A stretch of DNA of 64,000 nucleotides from Gemmata massiliana (GTDB taxonomy: Bacteria; Planctomycetota; Planctomycetia; Gemmatales; Gemmataceae): contig HG799464.1 in the NCBI GenBank assembly GCA_000531095.1, positions 250,841 to 314,840 of the forward strand, written 5' to 3'. Numbering within the stretch: the stretch's first letter is position 1; each line of letters opens with the position of its first letter. The notes beneath the pieces are model-generated. The model saw nothing but the letters and a program-made list of their open reading frames with translations. It searched no databases and was not told the origin of the DNA. Position numbers and translations under genes: made by a program. Positions 55,990-64,000 of this stretch are shown here, in pieces.

Positions 55990-56898
55990 CTACTCTACAT
56001 CGGCTTCCAGGTCTTTCGCCGCTGGCGTCCAGTTGCCCGACTGGTAGGCCGTTAGGAACTCGATGGTGGTGGCCCTGTCTTGAAACTGGCCTTCGATCTT
56101 GTCGCCGTTGTCGTACCGAATGGTGACTTCGTACTTGACCAGTGGGCCGGTCGGGGCTGCCTCGTCGTACTTTTCGACGTAGGCGATGGCGCTGGCCACG
56201 CTGACGCAATCCTTTGCCGACCCGTGCAACGGGATTACCCGGATAGCGTTGATCTGTCGCACAATGGCCCGCTCCAAATGCAGCATGAATTCTTCAAGGC
56301 CGCGCTGGTTCAGCTCCATCAACTTCTTCCAAACCCCTGTCTGACCCGTTGCTGACACGCTTGCCCATTTCAGCATCTTGGCTTCGTGGTCTTTGTCGGG
56401 CGTAGCTTCATCGTAGCGGGCATCAATTCCGACCGTGGCGAACGCTTCGACGATGGAATCGTAAGTGAGGTAAAGGACTTTGAAGCCCGTGGACCGAAGT
56501 TGGGCCAGTGCGTTGGGTGTGTAGTCACCTGCAAGGACGCGCCTGAGGAGCGGGGCACTGAAACGATGCTTCTCGGCGATGGGCAGGATGGCCCCCTGAA
56601 TCTCCTGGGCTTTGTTCTTTGAGTGCTTTGTGTACCGCCGCCACGCACTCTCAATGAAGGCGATGGGGGTTCCGATCTTTTCAGGCGTCCCGCCCCGTTC
56701 AAGAACGTAGTCCAGGTCGTGCCCGTTGCCGAAGGTATCCACCCATCGGAGCTTCTTCCCCGAACGTGCCGGTCGTGGGCCCTTCTTGTCCAGGAACAGG
56801 CCGTGCTTATCGGCGAACGCCTGCAATTGCGGCTCGATGGCCGATTCGCAGTATTCACCGACGAACTGTCCCCATTTGTGTCCCGCTGCTTCGGCCAT
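55990..56898 (-). CDS. Putative type II-like restriction endonuclease
   Basis: 302 residues. It is placed directly behind a DNA methyltransferase gene (three bases apart, same strand), the usual order of a type II R-M pair. The segment DLDYVLERGG ... IAFIESAWRRYTKHSKNKAQ resembles a PD-(D/E)xK core: an acidic strand, Glu in a second strand, and lysines after it, but the usual ExK reads Glu-Ser-Ala, so the catalytic lysine must come from a later position. The WRRYTKHSxNKAQEIQG stretch recurs in R-M-linked proteins of this kind that I recognise, but I do not know its cleavage specificity. G+C is visibly lower than in neighbouring planctomycete genes, which suggests transfer. A T-run terminator follows the stop. 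Confidence 0.6.
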   Translation of the reverse strand: MAEAAGHKWGQFVGEYCESAIEPQLQAFADKHGLFLDKKGPRPARSGKKLRWVDTFGNGHDLDYVLERGGTPEKIGTPIAFIESAWRRYTKHSKNKAQEIQGAILPIAEKHRFSAPLLRRVLAGDYTPNALAQLRSTGFKVLYLTYDSIVEAFATVGIDARYDEATPDKDHEAKMLKWASVSATGQTGVWKKLMELNQRGLEEFMLHLERAIVRQINAIRVIPLHGSAKDCVSVASAIAYVEKYDEAAPTGPLVKYEVTIRYDNGDKIEGQFQDRATTIEFLTAYQSGNWTPAAKDLEADVE

Positions 56899-56901
56899 GT
56901 T

Positions 56902-58281
56902 TTACCCCTGTACCCAAAGCCGACCTTCGTGCAGCGGAACCCGATGCTTCCGGTTCTTCCACTTGATGTTTCGATCCCGTGTCTTCTCAAACCTGAACGA
57001 TTTGAAGCCAGCCGCTAACGCCAGTTCTCCCAACCAGCGGTCGACGGGGACGTAGATCCCATAGGGTGCGGAGTCGCCAACTACGAAGCAGACCAGCGAA
57101 CCCTTCGCCGTGACCCGTCGTAGCGCCAGCCAAACTTCCGCCATGTCCTTGAAGTAGGCCGCAACCATCGTGTGGTAGTTCTTCTTCCCGCGGTGAGTGT
57201 CACGAACCGTTGCCATCTCTTTGCAGACGGTCTTCAACTCGGTCGAAATCGCCTCAACCACCTTCGCATCCAGTAGGGTGTCCATCTGCTTCGTGAGCGA
57301 AGACACGTGCTGGGTACACGAGCGAACCAAGTGGGAGCGCACGGTATCTTGTAGACACCCCCAACCTTCGATCTCCCCGAAAAAGGTCATCTCCAACCGA
57401 GTGGCGTCAGCGTAGTCGTAATTGTTTGCATACGGGGGTGACGTAATCACTAGGTCGGCCCACCCGTCGGGGACCGATTCGCACTTCCTGGCGTCGTCGG
57501 CGTACAACCTCGCCTGCGGCCCCGGTTGCTGATTTTGCAGAAGCGTCATGTCGGCAGCGAACAAGCGAACCTTCGCCTCGAACGCCGAAAACGGGTTCGT
57601 CGCCCTGGCTTTGCTCTTGCTTGGAAGAACATACTGCCACTGTGCGGTTCCGACCGGCGAGCATTCCCGAAGGATGCCGCACAAGGCTAGCCATGAAAGA
57701 GCCGAGTTGGGAGAGTCATCGGCCTTCCGCTTCCAGGCGCAACGAAGCGCTTCAAGCTGGGTCAGTATCTCAGGCGGGAAACACTTCCCCATCAAAGCGG
57801 GGTACTCTTTCCGGCGCACCTTCTCTGTCCTGGACGAAGCCAGGATCGACAATGCGTACCTGGTGAACGCTTCGGGGGGGGCACGCCAGTTCAACTTCGC
57901 CTGAGCGATGCGGGCAACGAACGGGTGGGCTTCGATCCCTGTACTTTCAACTTGGCATCGTTCGGCTTCTAGGGCTACGGTTCCCGATCCGGCGAATGGG
58001 TCGAAAATCCGGCTTCGACCGGCTGCTTTCTCTCTCTCGATGACCTCCCTGACCCACGGGGCCGAAAACCCCGCCGAGTAACGGAACCAGCGGTGGACGG
58101 CCAAACCCAGGTTATCGGCGAAGGTCGAAGTGGTGTCTTTCAAGCTGTCCGTGGCTGGGCCGTCCGTCTCTTCTGTGGCAGCCACAGAATCGAACAACGA
58201 CGGTCCAGCCTTCACTTTCGTCTTTCTCGGCATCTTCGTGTTTTCCGCTTTGCCTACACCGGGGCACTCGTTAAGAAACAT
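56902..58281 (-). CDS. DNA methyltransferase (N6-adenine or N4-cytosine type)
   Basis: 459 residues. The SAM-binding motif DPFAGSGT lies at residues 94-101 and the catalytic motif SPPY in TSPPYANNYDY at 281-284. The order, motif I before motif IV with a large recognition region between them, is that of amino-methyltransferases of the alpha- or gamma-like arrangement; the SPPY form is commonest in N4-cytosine enzymes. It should protect host DNA from the partner endonuclease, which follows after three bases. The ATG at 58281 has GAGGGGG upstream; an in-frame ATG at 58233 (MPRKTKVKAG) is an equally natural N-terminus. Low G+C and different codon use set this gene apart from its neighbours, as in acquired R-M cassettes. 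Confidence 0.83.
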   Translation of the reverse strand: MFLNECPGVGKAENTKMPRKTKVKAGPSLFDSVAATEETDGPATDSLKDTTSTFADNLGLAVHRWFRYSAGFSAPWVREVIEREKAAGRSRIFDPFAGSGTVALEAERCQVESTGIEAHPFVARIAQAKLNWRAPPEAFTRYALSILASSRTEKVRRKEYPALMGKCFPPEILTQLEALRCAWKRKADDSPNSALSWLALCGILRECSPVGTAQWQYVLPSKSKARATNPFSAFEAKVRLFAADMTLLQNQQPGPQARLYADDARKCESVPDGWADLVITSPPYANNYDYADATRLEMTFFGEIEGWGCLQDTVRSHLVRSCTQHVSSLTKQMDTLLDAKVVEAISTELKTVCKEMATVRDTHRGKKNYHTMVAAYFKDMAEVWLALRRVTAKGSLVCFVVGDSAPYGIYVPVDRWLGELALAAGFKSFRFEKTRDRNIKWKNRKHRVPLHEGRLWVQG

Positions 58282-58780: not shown

Positions 58781-59416
58781 TCACTTCAGTTCAACGTTCC
58801 AGTAGGCGTTATCGATGAACGACTGCCACGACTGGTACTTCTTCTGCGTGAGCTTGAGGTTCAACAGCGGGCTGCGCTTCGGCTTCTCCGGCTTCCGGAT
58901 CAGCGTCATGTTCGCCTGCCGCGGGGTGCGCCCGCCCTTGCGGACGTTGCAGTCCACGCACGCGCACACAATGTTGTCCCAGGTGGTCCCACCGCCCTGG
59001 CTCCGAGGCACAACGTGGTCCAGCGAGAGTTCCGTTGTCGGGAACCGCTTACCACAGTACTGGCACTGGTTGTGGTCCCGGGCGAAGATGTTCCGCCGGT
59101 TGAACTTCACCGTCTGCTTGGGCATCTTGTCGTAGCTCAAGAGCCGGATGACGCGCGGCGACAACAGCTCGGAGCTGGTGGTCCGAATCCAGTCGTCGTC
59201 CTCTTGGCGGAAGTTGGCGGCGCGGAAGGCGCTCAGCTCGGCCCACGACTCGAAGTTGTAGGTCGAGAACTGGCCGTCCTCCATGCTGACCACTTCGGCC
59301 AGATCCTTACACAACAAGCAGAACGCTCGGCGGACGGAGACCACGTGAACGGCCATGAACGTCTTGTTCAGCACCAACACGCTCGCGTCCAGGGCCGAGT
59401 AGGAGCCGACATTCAT
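58781..59416 (-). CDS. HNH endonuclease
   Basis: 211 residues. The C-terminal half is an HNH nuclease with zinc-binding pairs CQYCGKRF and CACVDCNVRKGG, and the first His and preceding Asp in LSLDHVVPRSQGG (Asp133-His134). The later Asn/Asp positions are in TTWDNIVCACVDCN. The N-terminal 90 residues (ASVLVLNKTFMAVHVVSVRR) form a domain common to planctomycete and cyanobacterial HNH proteins, often of unknown target. It may cut DNA nonspecifically or be part of a defence or repair function. It lies between an R-M cassette and the McrC operon, transcribed in the same direction as both. Its own strong terminator suggests an independent transcript. Confidence 0.85.
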   Translation of the reverse strand: MNVGSYSALDASVLVLNKTFMAVHVVSVRRAFCLLCKDLAEVVSMEDGQFSTYNFESWAELSAFRAANFRQEDDDWIRTTSSELLSPRVIRLLSYDKMPKQTVKFNRRNIFARDHNQCQYCGKRFPTTELSLDHVVPRSQGGGTTWDNIVCACVDCNVRKGGRTPRQANMTLIRKPEKPKRSPLLNLKLTQKKYQSWQSFIDNAYWNVELK

Positions 59417-59644: not shown

Positions 59645-60799
59645 TTACGATCGGCGGCAGTCGCGTGCGAGTTTCGCTATCGAACGGGCCAGTTCCGCGG
59701 CGTCCCCGATCACGCGCACGCGGTAGCGCGACACGCGCACGCGGCTGTTGGGGGTAGTGAAGTGCGTGCGGGCGTTCGTGCGGCCCGGGTACACCAACCC
59801 GACTCGCTCCGCGCCCGTGAGGGTGGCGTAAGCCAGGACTTGGTGGAGGTCGTTCGCGTCGAGCGTGGTGGTCTTCCACTTCGCGTCGAGCACCACTCGC
59901 GCGGCATGACGCTTGCAGATCACGATGTCCGGCTCAAGGGTCGTAGGGCCGAGCGTGAAGCCGGGCTGTGCCTCGACGCCCCACGCGCGGTGTGGGGCCA
60001 ACTCACGGGTGAGCGCTTCAGTGAGGTACCGCTCAAAGGCCTGACCGAGATCGATCAGAAACGCGCTACCCGCGTGCGCGAGCGGGTCGGCGCTCGCGAG
60101 TCCGTTCAGGATCAATCGGCACACGTTGAGGAGCGGTCGATACGACTCCGCACGCGGTTCCGCGCGGGCGAGGACGAACGTGCGTTCCGTGACGGGTTGG
60201 GGAAGAACGCTGGCGAGCGGCACAACAGCAGATTCGATGCGCTGTCGAAGTGCGAGCGGTAATTCTGTGCGATCGAGTAACGCGATGGCCGTCGCTTTGG
60301 GGATCTGGTTCCACGGCGCGTTCAGATCGAAGACCGGTTCGTTGATGTAGAAGCGGTCGGGAAACGCGCGGGCCGCAGCGTCACGCATCTGCTCGGCCGC
60401 CCGGAGCTTCCCTCGAAGGAACGACGATGTGGTTTCGACTTCACTGTACCCCGCAACCAAGCCCGGCCGGGTTACCGCTTCGAGTTGGTCCACGAACTCG
60501 GTCGCGAGCACGGCCAGCAGGTCGGTTCCGGGTTCGTGGGTGGTACCTTCGGCTTCGGGAGAAAGACCGAGCAGGAGCCGCAAGTTCGGCCACGGGATCT
60601 TGGGGCGAATGATGTATCGCGTGGAAGGGCCGGTGAGGAACCCGACGAACCCGCGGGGCGTGAGCCGGACCCGTCCGCGCTCGAATGTGGGTACGACGTC
60701 GATGAGGTGGCGCGCGTGAGCGAGTAGGAAAGTGATTTCCGCGCGCGGGAGGCGCACCACGCGCGGGCGACGTTCGGTCAGCGTTACCGTGGGGGTCAC
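59645..60799 (-). CDS. mcrC: McrC-like nuclease subunit
   Basis: 384 residues. The N-terminal part matches McrC of the 5-methylcytosine-specific McrBC system (blocks PRGFVGFLTGPSTRYIIRPK and LLAVLATEFVDQLE), and the C-terminal PD-(D/E)xK nuclease core is clear: PDIVI with Asp291, then LDAKWK with Asp305 and Lys307. The start codon GTG at 60799 overlaps the TGA of the gene before it (GTGA), so translation is coupled; an ATG at 60847 would add 16 residues that overlap the upstream coding region. It is the last gene of an operon containing two membrane proteins and a gene cut by the window edge. McrC normally needs the GTPase McrB; the partner may be that edge gene. Confidence 0.78.
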   Translation of the reverse strand: MTPTVTLTERRPRVVRLPRAEITFLLAHARHLIDVVPTFERGRVRLTPRGFVGFLTGPSTRYIIRPKIPWPNLRLLLGLSPEAEGTTHEPGTDLLAVLATEFVDQLEAVTRPGLVAGYSEVETTSSFLRGKLRAAEQMRDAAARAFPDRFYINEPVFDLNAPWNQIPKATAIALLDRTELPLALRQRIESAVVPLASVLPQPVTERTFVLARAEPRAESYRPLLNVCRLILNGLASADPLAHAGSAFLIDLGQAFERYLTEALTRELAPHRAWGVEAQPGFTLGPTTLEPDIVICKRHAARVVLDAKWKTTTLDANDLHQVLAYATLTGAERVGLVYPGRTNARTHFTTPNSRVRVSRYRVRVIGDAAELARSIAKLARDCRRS

Positions 60800-62334
60800 G
60801 GGTTGTGCGGTTCCTCTGCGGGCAGCCCACGGTGGCCGGGTAGCCACAGCCGATAGCCGATCCCGGTTCCTGGGCCACCACCTTGGAAGTCGGTGTGCTC
60901 GGCGTCGAGTTTGAACGATGCGTTGGCCCAGAAACAGTATACCGCGATGCGGTCCGGGAAGACGCGGTAGGTGATTAGTTTACCGTCGAACGGGCTGACA
61001 GGAACCGCTGGTAAGAAGGTCGGGGTGAGTTCGGTGAGGTCGTTGGGCCACCGGCCGTTCTTGATCCGGAATCGCTCACAGGCAACACACGTAGCAGCGG
61101 AAAGTAGGTCCGCGCGACTGCGCAACCCGGCTTCCGCGATTTTTTGGCACGCCGGGGTGAGGAGGCGTGTGATGAGGTAGCGGTACTCTTCGGGCGGGCC
61201 CTTTGGGATCTCGATCTTTTTGACTGCGGCGAGTTGTTCGTGGTGCGGTAGTTTCGACGCCTCAACGAACTCCGTGCTGAGCTGGAGGTACTTCGCACGG
61301 TCGCCTGGTAACAGAGCCTTGTACACTCGGAACGCAGCGTAATGTTGCGGGCCGGGATTACTGGTTTGGGCGTAACTGAATACGTTCTCGGGCGGAATCG
61401 AGCCGTCTTCGATTCCCTGAAACGCCTTATCGATAAACGCCCGCTCGCCGCGCATCCCGATCTGGAACCAGGGAACGTCGGCTTCGGTGAGTAGTTCCGC
61501 TTGGAACTCTGTGAGGTCGTCCGTTGGCTCGCTCCACGCGAGCACCTGCATTCCCGTTTGTGACGCGACCTTTGCGATCGCGATCCGGACCAGTTGCGAA
61601 ATCAGGACGGGTTCGTCACCAACGGCACGCGCGATACTCAGTGTCGCCCGGGCGGACGAGATCCCGCGGCTCGGGTTCTTCTTGTGTATGGCCGCGAGGT
61701 GCCCGTCGTATTGGAGCAGTGACGCGACCTGGCGCGCGTGATCGAGGTGCGGGAGCAGGGTGGCGATCGGATCCGTTCCGATGGTGAGCGGGAACGTCCC
61801 GCCGCGCTTGTTACGAAGGATCAGGGCTTTTGTGCGGACGACGGACGTGATCTGTTCGATCGTTTCTGCGCTCGTAATCGCATCCGGCGGGGGCAGGTGG
61901 TTGCTCGTGTTGTGGACCCGCCAGCGGTTCGCGTCCTCGGACCGCTGCCACTCGCGAAATTCGTGCGGGATCTCGGCCGCGCACTCGGTCACAAATGCGG
62001 CCGCGTTGTCGTCGCCCTTGACGTCATTCTTCGCGCGCTCGGCGAGGATCGCGTCGAGGCGCCAACCGGGGTCTTCGGCGTCCAGGCGGTTGGTCGTTGC
62101 GTTCAACTGACGCTGCCCGAGCCGCCCAGCCTGCCACCGGCCGGTGAATCCGATCAACACAATGACCGCAATGAAAATGAACCCCCACCGGGCGACTTTT
62201 CGTATCTTCCGAAAGCGCTGGTGCGGGGGCGGAGGGGCGAAATCATCGTCCGGGTCGATCTCGGTCACGAGCGTGTCTCGGGTGGGGAGGGACCAGATTG
62301 AGACGCTTCTGCCGTTCGGCGATTTCGCCCGCAC
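60796..62334 (-). CDS. Membrane-anchored hypothetical protein (paralogue B of McrC operon)
   Basis: 512 residues. A charged N-terminus (DDDFAPPPPHQRFRKIRK) is followed by one transmembrane helix (GFIFIAVIVLIGFTG) and a large, probably external, mainly helical domain. Conserved-looking pieces are SIARAVGDEPVLISQLVRIA and the C-terminal ACERFRIKNGRWPNDLTELT ... FLPAVPVSPFDG, a pattern common in planctomycete membrane proteins. The start is uncertain: a GTG at 62334, or a GTG at 62268 giving VTEIDPDDDF, which is closer to the paralogue in length. It overlaps mcrC by four bases and is six bases from the preceding gene, so it is a fixed part of the operon. No catalytic motif was seen; function unknown. 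Confidence 0.65.
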   Translation of the reverse strand: MRAKSPNGRSVSIWSLPTRDTLVTEIDPDDDFAPPPPHQRFRKIRKVARWGFIFIAVIVLIGFTGRWQAGRLGQRQLNATTNRLDAEDPGWRLDAILAERAKNDVKGDDNAAAFVTECAAEIPHEFREWQRSEDANRWRVHNTSNHLPPPDAITSAETIEQITSVVRTKALILRNKRGGTFPLTIGTDPIATLLPHLDHARQVASLLQYDGHLAAIHKKNPSRGISSARATLSIARAVGDEPVLISQLVRIAIAKVASQTGMQVLAWSEPTDDLTEFQAELLTEADVPWFQIGMRGERAFIDKAFQGIEDGSIPPENVFSYAQTSNPGPQHYAAFRVYKALLPGDRAKYLQLSTEFVEASKLPHHEQLAAVKKIEIPKGPPEEYRYLITRLLTPACQKIAEAGLRSRADLLSAATCVACERFRIKNGRWPNDLTELTPTFLPAVPVSPFDGKLITYRVFPDRIAVYCFWANASFKLDAEHTDFQGGGPGTGIGYRLWLPGHRGLPAEEPHNP

Positions 62335-62340
62335 GAAGAA

Positions 62341-63834
62341 TCACGGGTTGTCGTTCTGTTGTTCCTGCTCGGGCGCGGGTTCTTCTGGGAGTGGGGGTTG
62401 ATGCCGGTGTTCGGGGTTCCACAACCGGAACCGGCTATAAGTCGTGGTTGGAGATGGGGGCGCATTCAGTGTTCCGCCGTCCCCGCGCAGATCCTTCCCG
62501 ACCGAGTGAATAACAACGCCTTGCTCGAGTTTCGTGAAGCGCAGCGGTTCCGCCGTATAAGGATCGAGTGGGACCGCGGGTAGATACGCCGGCACCAGTT
62601 CGGCGAGCGCAGTGGGCCAACGCTTGTGTTGCTGGCGGAACCGCTCGCACGCGATGCCCACAACCGCACAGCGCGCTTCAGCGACCCCGCGCCAGTGTGC
62701 GTGCGCGACGCGATCCACGGCCGGCAACAGGAGCCTTGACAGCATCCGGGTTGGCTCATTGGGCGGGACCGGGATCGTCGCAAAGAGCGCGGGCTGTTCG
62801 GAGATCGGTCGGCGCGCGAACTCGACGCACTGCGTCAGCCAAGACAGTGTGTAAGCACGGTCGGCGGGCAAGTTGCTGCGGTAGTGCCACCATCCGAGCT
62901 GCGCCCACGTGTCCTGGAAGCTCCGATCGATCGCCTGTGCGGGCGTCGCAGCGCCCGAATCGAGGTTCTCAAACAGGCGATCGAACGCGGCGCGCTCTCC
63001 GCGCACCCCGTACAGCAAAATCGGCTCTTCGGCGTCTTCTGTGAACGCCGCTTGCAGCTCTTTGAGTTTCACTGCGTCCGCGGTTTGTGCGAGGTGCCAT
63101 TCGACGGATTTGACCGTGATCGCGCGTACCGCCATGCGCACCAACTGCGAGACGAGGAACGGCTCATCACCCACCGAGCGCGACGCATTCAGAAGAGCGA
63201 GCAGGTCGTCCGCGGCTCGCGACCGGTCACCGTCCTCGGTCGCGAGTACGACGTCCCAGCGGAGCACGTCCGCGGTCTGGCGCGTGTCCTGAGTGTCTTG
63301 TAAAACGGTGTCGAGCACGTTCGGCTTCAGTACGATCTCGCGGTGCCCCGATGGGTAGTCCTTCAGTGAGCGCGCGAGGGCTGCGGCGTCGGCGGAGGTG
63401 GCCAGTTCGCGCCGAACTTCCTTCAGAATCGACGGTGAATAACGGACGTTAGGCTGGACATCCAGGCGCGACTTCCAGGTGCCCTTTGCGAGTTCCTTGC
63501 CCCATTCGGCGTGCGTCAGCTTTTTGATTTTGGGGATCAGTTCTGCGCTGTTCTTCCCTTCGGGCGCGTTTTGCCGGGTCGCGACGAGCCGATCCCACGA
63601 CCAGTTCGGGTCTTGCTCGTCGAGTTGAGTGTGAGCCGCGGTCAACGCGCGTTCGCCATCGCGCCGGGCCAACGACCGGTCCACGAGCGTGCAGCCGCCG
63701 TAGCCGACGAGTGACACGGCGATCGAGACGCCGATGCGTCGGACCCATCGCCACCGGGACGGTCTTGAGACTTCAAAGAAACTGCGATCCACGTCGTAAA
63801 CGGGCGGTTCGGCCACGAAATCAGCCTCCTGCAT
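62341..63834 (-). CDS. Membrane-anchored hypothetical protein (paralogue A of McrC operon)
   Basis: 497 residues, paralogous to the next gene. The N-terminus is charged, one transmembrane helix follows (WVRRIGVSIAVSLVGYGG), and the same motifs occur in the same order: LDEQDPNWSWDRLVATR, RSVGDEPFLVSQLVRMA, a middle LYGVRGERAAFDRLFENL, and VGIACERFRQQHKRWPTALA ... YLPAVPLDPYTAE. The region before the end is Pro/Gln/Glu-rich (PPLPEEPAPEQEQQN). Its ATG (63834) overlaps the last codons of the upstream gene by 14 bases. The pairing of two paralogues between the two ends of an McrC operon is not something I recognise from described McrBC systems. They may anchor the complex at the membrane, or be unrelated genes captured in the operon. 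Confidence 0.65.
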   Translation of the reverse strand: MQEADFVAEPPVYDVDRSFFEVSRPSRWRWVRRIGVSIAVSLVGYGGCTLVDRSLARRDGERALTAAHTQLDEQDPNWSWDRLVATRQNAPEGKNSAELIPKIKKLTHAEWGKELAKGTWKSRLDVQPNVRYSPSILKEVRRELATSADAAALARSLKDYPSGHREIVLKPNVLDTVLQDTQDTRQTADVLRWDVVLATEDGDRSRAADDLLALLNASRSVGDEPFLVSQLVRMAVRAITVKSVEWHLAQTADAVKLKELQAAFTEDAEEPILLYGVRGERAAFDRLFENLDSGAATPAQAIDRSFQDTWAQLGWWHYRSNLPADRAYTLSWLTQCVEFARRPISEQPALFATIPVPPNEPTRMLSRLLLPAVDRVAHAHWRGVAEARCAVVGIACERFRQQHKRWPTALAELVPAYLPAVPLDPYTAEPLRFTKLEQGVVIHSVGKDLRGDGGTLNAPPSPTTTYSRFRLWNPEHRHQPPLPEEPAPEQEQQNDNP

Positions 63835-64000
63835 CGGTCGTCGCTTTGAGCCTTCGGCGCTTCTCTGCGCTGGCGGTTAACAGGCGCTCGGGGGTATAGT
63901 CTTTCAGGCGGTCCTCGCGCCCACCGAGGTAGTCGAGCAACAGCGGCCGGACGTGGTGTTCCCACACCGCCGTGAGCCGCTCGTTATCGAGTTCGGGCAC
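63821..64000 (-). CDS. C-terminal end of a gene cut by the window edge, possible McrB-like AAA ATPase
   Basis: 59 residues before the stop at 63821 are visible; the gene continues beyond 64000. The sequence VWEHHVRPLLLDYLGG resembles the C-terminal tail of AAA/McrB-type proteins, which often end with a Trp, a stretch of hydrophobic residues and an acidic tail. That match is short and would not be convincing alone; the operon position before an McrC gene makes it plausible. The stop overlaps the start of the next gene by 14 bases, showing tight coupling. A protein of some other family remains possible. Confidence 0.45.
   Translation of the reverse strand: MPELDNERLTAVWEHHVRPLLLDYLGGREDRLKDYTPERLLTASAEKRRRLKATTDAGG

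Follow-up and report, generated by a model that had tools for sequence, protein, structure and literature searches.

The window, by which we mean the whole 64,000-nt stretch of Gemmata massiliana DNA that was analyzed (G000:C3:250841-314840, where G000 is the 9.27-Mb host genome), carries together with its flanking sequence a set of minus-strand genes in the order mcrB, memA, memB, mcrC and an HNH gene. Only the 3′ end of mcrB lies inside the window (63821..64000, minus strand), and the rest runs past its edge to G000:C3:317282, so that the complete gene, read past position 64000, encodes 873 aa (L002:5822-8443, minus strand). The copy adjoining mcrB, memA (62341..63834, minus strand), and the second copy, memB (60796..62334, minus strand), are open reading frames for predicted bitopic membrane proteins of 497 and 512 aa, respectively. 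They are followed by mcrC (59645..60799, minus strand), which encodes the PD-(D/E)xK nuclease subunit, 384 aa when read from a conserved GTG. The mcrB and memA genes overlap by 14 bases if memA starts at its ATG, and an in-frame GTG lies 4 bases past the mcrB stop; the gap between memA and memB is 6 bases. At the last junction, the memB stop and the mcrC GTG start overlap in the 4 bases GTGA (60796..60799, minus strand). The longest mechanical McrC frame starts at 60847, but we place the mcrC start at GTG 60799 because it is conserved among relatives. An earlier reading of this DNA from sequence only had described four genes in this order with overlaps of 14 and 4 bases and a gap of 6, and this is the arrangement that we find on the minus strand, the 4-base overlap being the one that uses GTG 60799. 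With mcrB and mcrC on one strand, tight junctions and the membrane genes in between, the host locus forms a single operon.

The HNH endonuclease-like gene (58781..59416, minus strand; HNH_5, 8.6e-18) serves here as a landmark for the site and is not a proposed component. Just downstream of it on the minus strand (55990-58281) is a Type II restriction-modification pair, consisting of a methyltransferase (56902-58281, minus strand; PADLOC PDLC03306, 1.3e-140) and an endonuclease (55990-56898, minus strand; PADLOC PDLC03525, 6.6e-69), and this pair was not found at the corresponding place in the mcr loci of relatives.

The McrB and McrC subunits

The sequence-only reading had taken the tail of the edge gene to resemble McrB and had noted that its proposal would fail if the gene lacked AAA or GTPase motifs. 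The extended gene has these motifs and is McrB: GVPGTGKT serves as Walker A, LIVDEFNR as Walker B, and the signature, MNQLDRS, is of the NxxD form (N737, D740); a match to the solved McrB of E. coli reaches 2.8e-64. Its layout consists of a helical N-terminal region (residues ~1-325), a DUF2461 domain (~334-545; 1.9e-16 over 334-545) and an AAA+ GTPase (~580-855), the last of which matches AAA_5 at 1.9e-19 (601-754) and the NCBI model PRK11331 McrB at 8.6e-41. Walker A, Walker B, NxxD and an RRRF motif are conserved in the Gemmataceae McrB alignment, with the Walker and NxxD motifs kept in 16 of 17 aligned proteins and degenerate solely in G048. In that genome the McrB relative (L131:2575-5286 / L181) has a degenerate Walker B and NxxD and McrC was undetected; its motifs apparently decayed after loss of the partner.

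The close relative L158 was modeled with AlphaFold2 (pLDDT 87.4). The AAA+ part of the model matches E. coli McrB 6ut6 with Z 26.9 and 35% identity over 274 aligned residues, and the DUF2461 part matches the DUF1054 proteins 2a8e (Z 19.0, 200 residues, 2.8 A) and 3mqz (Z 16.6), which share its fold but are stand-alone proteins with only 12-14% identity. By sequence, residues 1 to ~325 have no match in Pfam or the PDB, and a domain search found neither DUF3578 nor any other named specificity domain in McrB. The position of the specificity domain is occupied instead by the helical region plus DUF2461, and the domain layout shows a new McrB architecture in which, as judged from the sequence, this N-terminal part would replace the E. 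coli DNA-binding domain. Its mean hydropathy peaks at 1.26, and McrB itself lacks a membrane segment. A helix-hairpin-helix of the DNA-glycosylase-like kind had been suspected in the N-terminal region from the pattern G-x-G...W-S-A...P, and no test supported it; a viral-protein fold search with the McrB model returned generic AAA+ ATPases.

The McrC protein matches PF10117 at 7.6e-35, and its nuclease residues, D291 and D305-x-K307, recur without exception in the sequences of 21 relatives. Its PD-(D/E)xK site is thus intact by sequence, as the earlier reading had it.

By these defining motifs, the Gemmataceae system is a McrBC variant. It shares with E. coli K-12 McrBC the McrB GTPase domain, the NxxD signature, the PD-(D/E)xK nuclease of McrC and the single operon, but it has the helical region and DUF2461 where the E. 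coli protein has an N-terminal DUF3578 DNA-binding domain, and it has membrane-protein genes between the subunits. The DUF2461-McrB systems of cyanobacteria and other bacteria, such as those of Leptolyngbya (L192), Halomicronema (L206), Anabaena (L207) and Bacteriovoracaceae (L190), also have a DUF2461-AAA+ fusion with mcrC adjoining, but they lack a match to the ~325-aa N-terminal region of the Gemmataceae protein, and no gene for a membrane protein separates their mcrB from mcrC. Our literature search found no paper combining DUF2461 with McrB, and the publications pairing planctomycetes with McrBC appear, by title and abstract, to do so incidentally. The McrBC census PMC11090510 mentions neither DUF2461 nor planctomycetes in its main text, although its supplements could list them; relative to that main text, the combination of helical region, DUF2461 and GTPase adds an unnamed McrB architecture.

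The membrane protein family

The memA and memB products share 31% identity across 485 aa (E 3e-53) and are therefore paralogs and not a chance match, in line with what had been proposed from the sequence. The proteins belong to no family in Pfam, NCBIfam or PADLOC, and an alignment search against the PDB gave only chance-level matches; mem is an undescribed planctomycete family. Each protein has one N-terminal hydrophobic segment, placed by hydropathy at residue 34 in memA. An AlphaFold2 model of memB (pLDDT 87.9) has a long helix (39-87) that includes the membrane segment, followed by a helical-repeat body and, in the C-terminal part, a helix (394-426) and a small sheet. Hydropathy and the model together bear out the earlier description of these proteins as single-helix membrane proteins. 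One further form of the gene is seen in G003, where two mem genes are fused in one 972-aa frame within the mcr locus (L100:538-3456).

Family-wide, the 12 residues on either side of the hydrophobic segment contain 266 K+R on the N side versus 141 on the C side, so by the positive-inside rule the bulk of mem is predicted to be outside the cytoplasm. If so, the bulk cannot touch McrBC. What would remain inside is a variable, unconserved cytoplasmic tail that in some members shrinks to about five residues.

Structural searches with the memB model gave weak results. Foldseek returned mostly designed helical repeats with a best E of 0.32, and VIA-align returned mostly helical repeats along with a weak match to PilA1, so we claim no fold relative for memB. 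The PilA1 match (4tsm) has a Z of 6.6 over 107 residues, which is inside the range of common arrangements. A T2SSG match was found in the C-terminal region of 2 of 54 family members, with a best E of 0.027. These matches give a faint hint that the mem C-terminus resembles pilins.

Distribution, junctions and chromosomal site

Our search set comprised every Gemmataceae genome retrieved for the family, 95 in total. McrC was found in 36 and host-type McrB in 38, and the two tend to co-occur. McrC is present in 19 of the 19 genomes of the host genus (g1) and in 17 of the 76 other Gemmataceae genomes. The mcrB and mcrC genes are adjacent on one contig in 25 cases, and in 20 of these, which span five genera, one to four mem copies lie between them, two being the commonest number; the other 5 pairs have none. 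The copy numbers come from an ORF and profile search, and the counts for G006, G010, G015 and G018 are incomplete since these loci are split or cut at draft contig ends. Adjacent pairs with no mem are found in G005, G011, G017, G103 and G023, and those with one in G001, G002, G004, G008, G012, G014 and G128, with G018 having at least one. Two copies are found in G000, G007, G009, G013, G055, G029, G130, G131 and G132, three in G003 and G016, and four in G050. Outside these pairs, G049 retains mem-mcrC-HNH intact with mcrB ~10 kb off, and G026 and G028 have mcrB and mcrC at separate places. Four of the loci that lack mem were searched between mcrB and mcrC for remnants of it, and none were found. 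The same scan found mem in 0 of 44 McrBC loci outside Gemmataceae, including cyanobacterial and other DUF2461-McrB fusions. The four-gene order on which the earlier proposal was built is thus kept in relatives in the sense that mem lies between most adjacent Gemmataceae pairs, but the copy number varies and the order was not found in the 44 loci from outside the family.

Next, we consider the junction with mcrC. Of the 21 mem-bearing loci, all but G003 have the last mem stop and the mcrC start overlapping as exactly GTGA, and this count of 20 overstates the evidence because related genomes share ancestry and are not independent. Loci with this overlap span genera g1, g32, g33, g38 and g12. The last mem before mcrC is A-type in G013, G014 and others and B-type in G000, G008 and others; since the last mem comes from several clades, the GTGA junction outlives gene replacement. 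Spacing between mcrB and the first mem is variable among loci. In mem-less loci, the mcrB-mcrC gap is 61-292 bases (G005, G011, G017 and G103), and G023 has a direct 4-base overlap. Unequal exchange among tandem mem copies probably alters their number while the outer junctions are kept. The gene arrangement supports a specific coupling of mem to mcrC within the same operon, and this linkage hints at membrane-associated restriction as a putative role.

The HNH gene belongs to the core set of the family, occurring once per genome in 85 of 95, and it lies directly downstream of mcrC, or in G108 of mcrB, in members of seven genera: g1, g32, g33, g38, g9, g6 and g34. Within the host genus, the mcr locus is at the same site beside the HNH gene wherever contigs allow a view. 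The pattern beside this core gene resembles a single ancient chromosomal location from which the locus has been lost in places, and not an island. A mobile defence island was considered and dropped, given the fixed site and the presence in 19/19 genomes of the genus, with patchiness in other genera only. The operon behind the "defence module" of the sequence-only reading is real, but the label is weakened by a fixed, genus-wide core locus.

A tree of 73 mem members requires 4 label changes for the mcr-locus copies versus 24.5 for shuffled labels, and these copies form almost one clade; the A-type clade is confined to mcr loci. The host also has a solitary B-type mem (L136:6203-7966; G000:C2:1066205-1067731) that is closest to the mcr-locus copy of G016 and keeps the tail DPDDDFAPPP, and it is apparently an escape from an mcr locus. 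Values of dN/dS are 0.16-0.22 for mem (memB in the host), 0.14-0.21 for McrC, 0.06-0.16 for McrB and 0.02-0.07 for HNH. All compared genes are under purifying selection, with mem the fastest evolving and HNH the slowest.

Possible roles of the membrane proteins

In McrBC, the N-terminal part of McrB recognizes the target, McrC stimulates GTP hydrolysis, and translocation is followed by cleavage by McrC. We know of no activity for any protein of the Gemmataceae McrBC subfamily. The reading that we favor, and hold with a little more belief than doubt, is a vertically inherited, fixed-site Type IV McrBC operon in a Gemmataceae-specific form with mem accessories. By analogy with the McrBC family, McrB hexamers would recognize their target via the N-terminal part, hydrolyze GTP when bound to McrC and then translocate, and McrC would cut. 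On a weaker footing, mem may be co-translated accessories whose amount follows that of McrC and which regulate, localize or sense for McrC at the cytoplasmic membrane. The McrBC core would not require them, since some species have none. Restriction systems are seldom conserved throughout a genus at one site, and this counts against the Type IV operon reading.

The most serious alternative, which we regard as possible but not probable, is that mem is a passenger, where the McrBC is complete and ordinary and an expanding, unrelated envelope family was inserted early in Gemmataceae and is co-transcribed, with a function of its own (e.g., pilin-like or surface) and no role in restriction. A mem family member is present in 74 of 99 relatives, and only 31 have McrC; most copies are away from mcrBC, as single genes or tandem sets with ordinary genes for neighbors, and the family occurs in many genomes without McrBC. 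Such a family would account for the mem-less mcrBC loci, the lack of mem in the 44 McrBC loci outside Gemmataceae, the unconserved cytoplasmic tail and the faint pilin likeness of the C-terminal region. It is harder to reconcile with the 4-base coupling to mcrC, which survives despite a differing last-copy ortholog, and with mcr-locus copies that stay in the locus under purifying selection. Among the free-standing copies are tandem arrays of three to five mem genes in G027 (L149:6671-13753) and G044 (L139 and L140), where McrBC was undetected.

The earlier proposal that the two membrane proteins are McrBC components is therefore borne out in part. They are in the same operon, coupled to mcrC and almost of one clade, but their number ranges from 0 to 4, five of 25 adjacent pairs do without them, and the family is widespread where there is no McrBC. 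That reading had counted scattering away from mcrC against itself; scattered copies do occur, in genomes that lack McrBC, but an adjoining mcrB and mcrC usually have mem between them. Co-translation with McrC, retention and selection would argue for a functional role, and the predicted topology, the variable tail, the mem-less species and the free-standing relatives argue against a direct one. Functional accessory and passenger are not far apart, and we slightly favor the accessory. Anchoring of the restriction complex by mem, as had been suggested, is not favored by the predicted topology, with its extracytoplasmic bulk and short, variable tail. A more specific form of the accessory reading, to which we give only about one chance in several, is that mem proteins are membrane-anchored helical-repeat components by which McrC would be controlled, or held in place, at the cytoplasmic membrane, so that restriction would occur where foreign DNA enters. 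The papers that we found describe no McrBC system with such a membrane component, and the recurrent operon ties undescribed membrane proteins translationally to a nuclease subunit. If this coupling is functional, restriction would be linked to the cell envelope; the planctomycete hosts are known for elaborate internal membranes.

It is unlikely that the Gemmata McrBC has been domesticated into a core DNA-processing machine at the membrane, no longer mainly for defence, with mem as partners. The occurrence of McrC in every genome of the genus, at a single fixed position whose neighbors are conserved, would fit such a machine, as would the low dN/dS, especially that of McrB versus its nearest relative (0.055). 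A study of a related family member (PMC8567305) found that its SDS-soluble fraction contained restriction endonucleases and DNA repair enzymes, but this remark on fractionation is general and does not name McrBC. The patchy occurrence of McrC elsewhere in the family also means that it is not essential there.

Membership of the host McrBC in the CoCoPALM or CoCoNuT branch is very improbable: in the main text of PMC11090510 these are McrBC systems linked to coiled coils, CoCoPALM also to membrane and pilus-assembly proteins (McrB fused to a transmembrane FtsB-like domain, with pilus-assembly-like peptidases associated), so that accessory parts and the faintly pilin-like mem C-terminus are a likeness, but the accessory proteins differ, the host McrB lacks a membrane segment, and the branch is defined there by NxD, which the NxxD of the host contradicts.

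Related species that differ in their number of mem genes, from zero to four, already provide a natural experiment.
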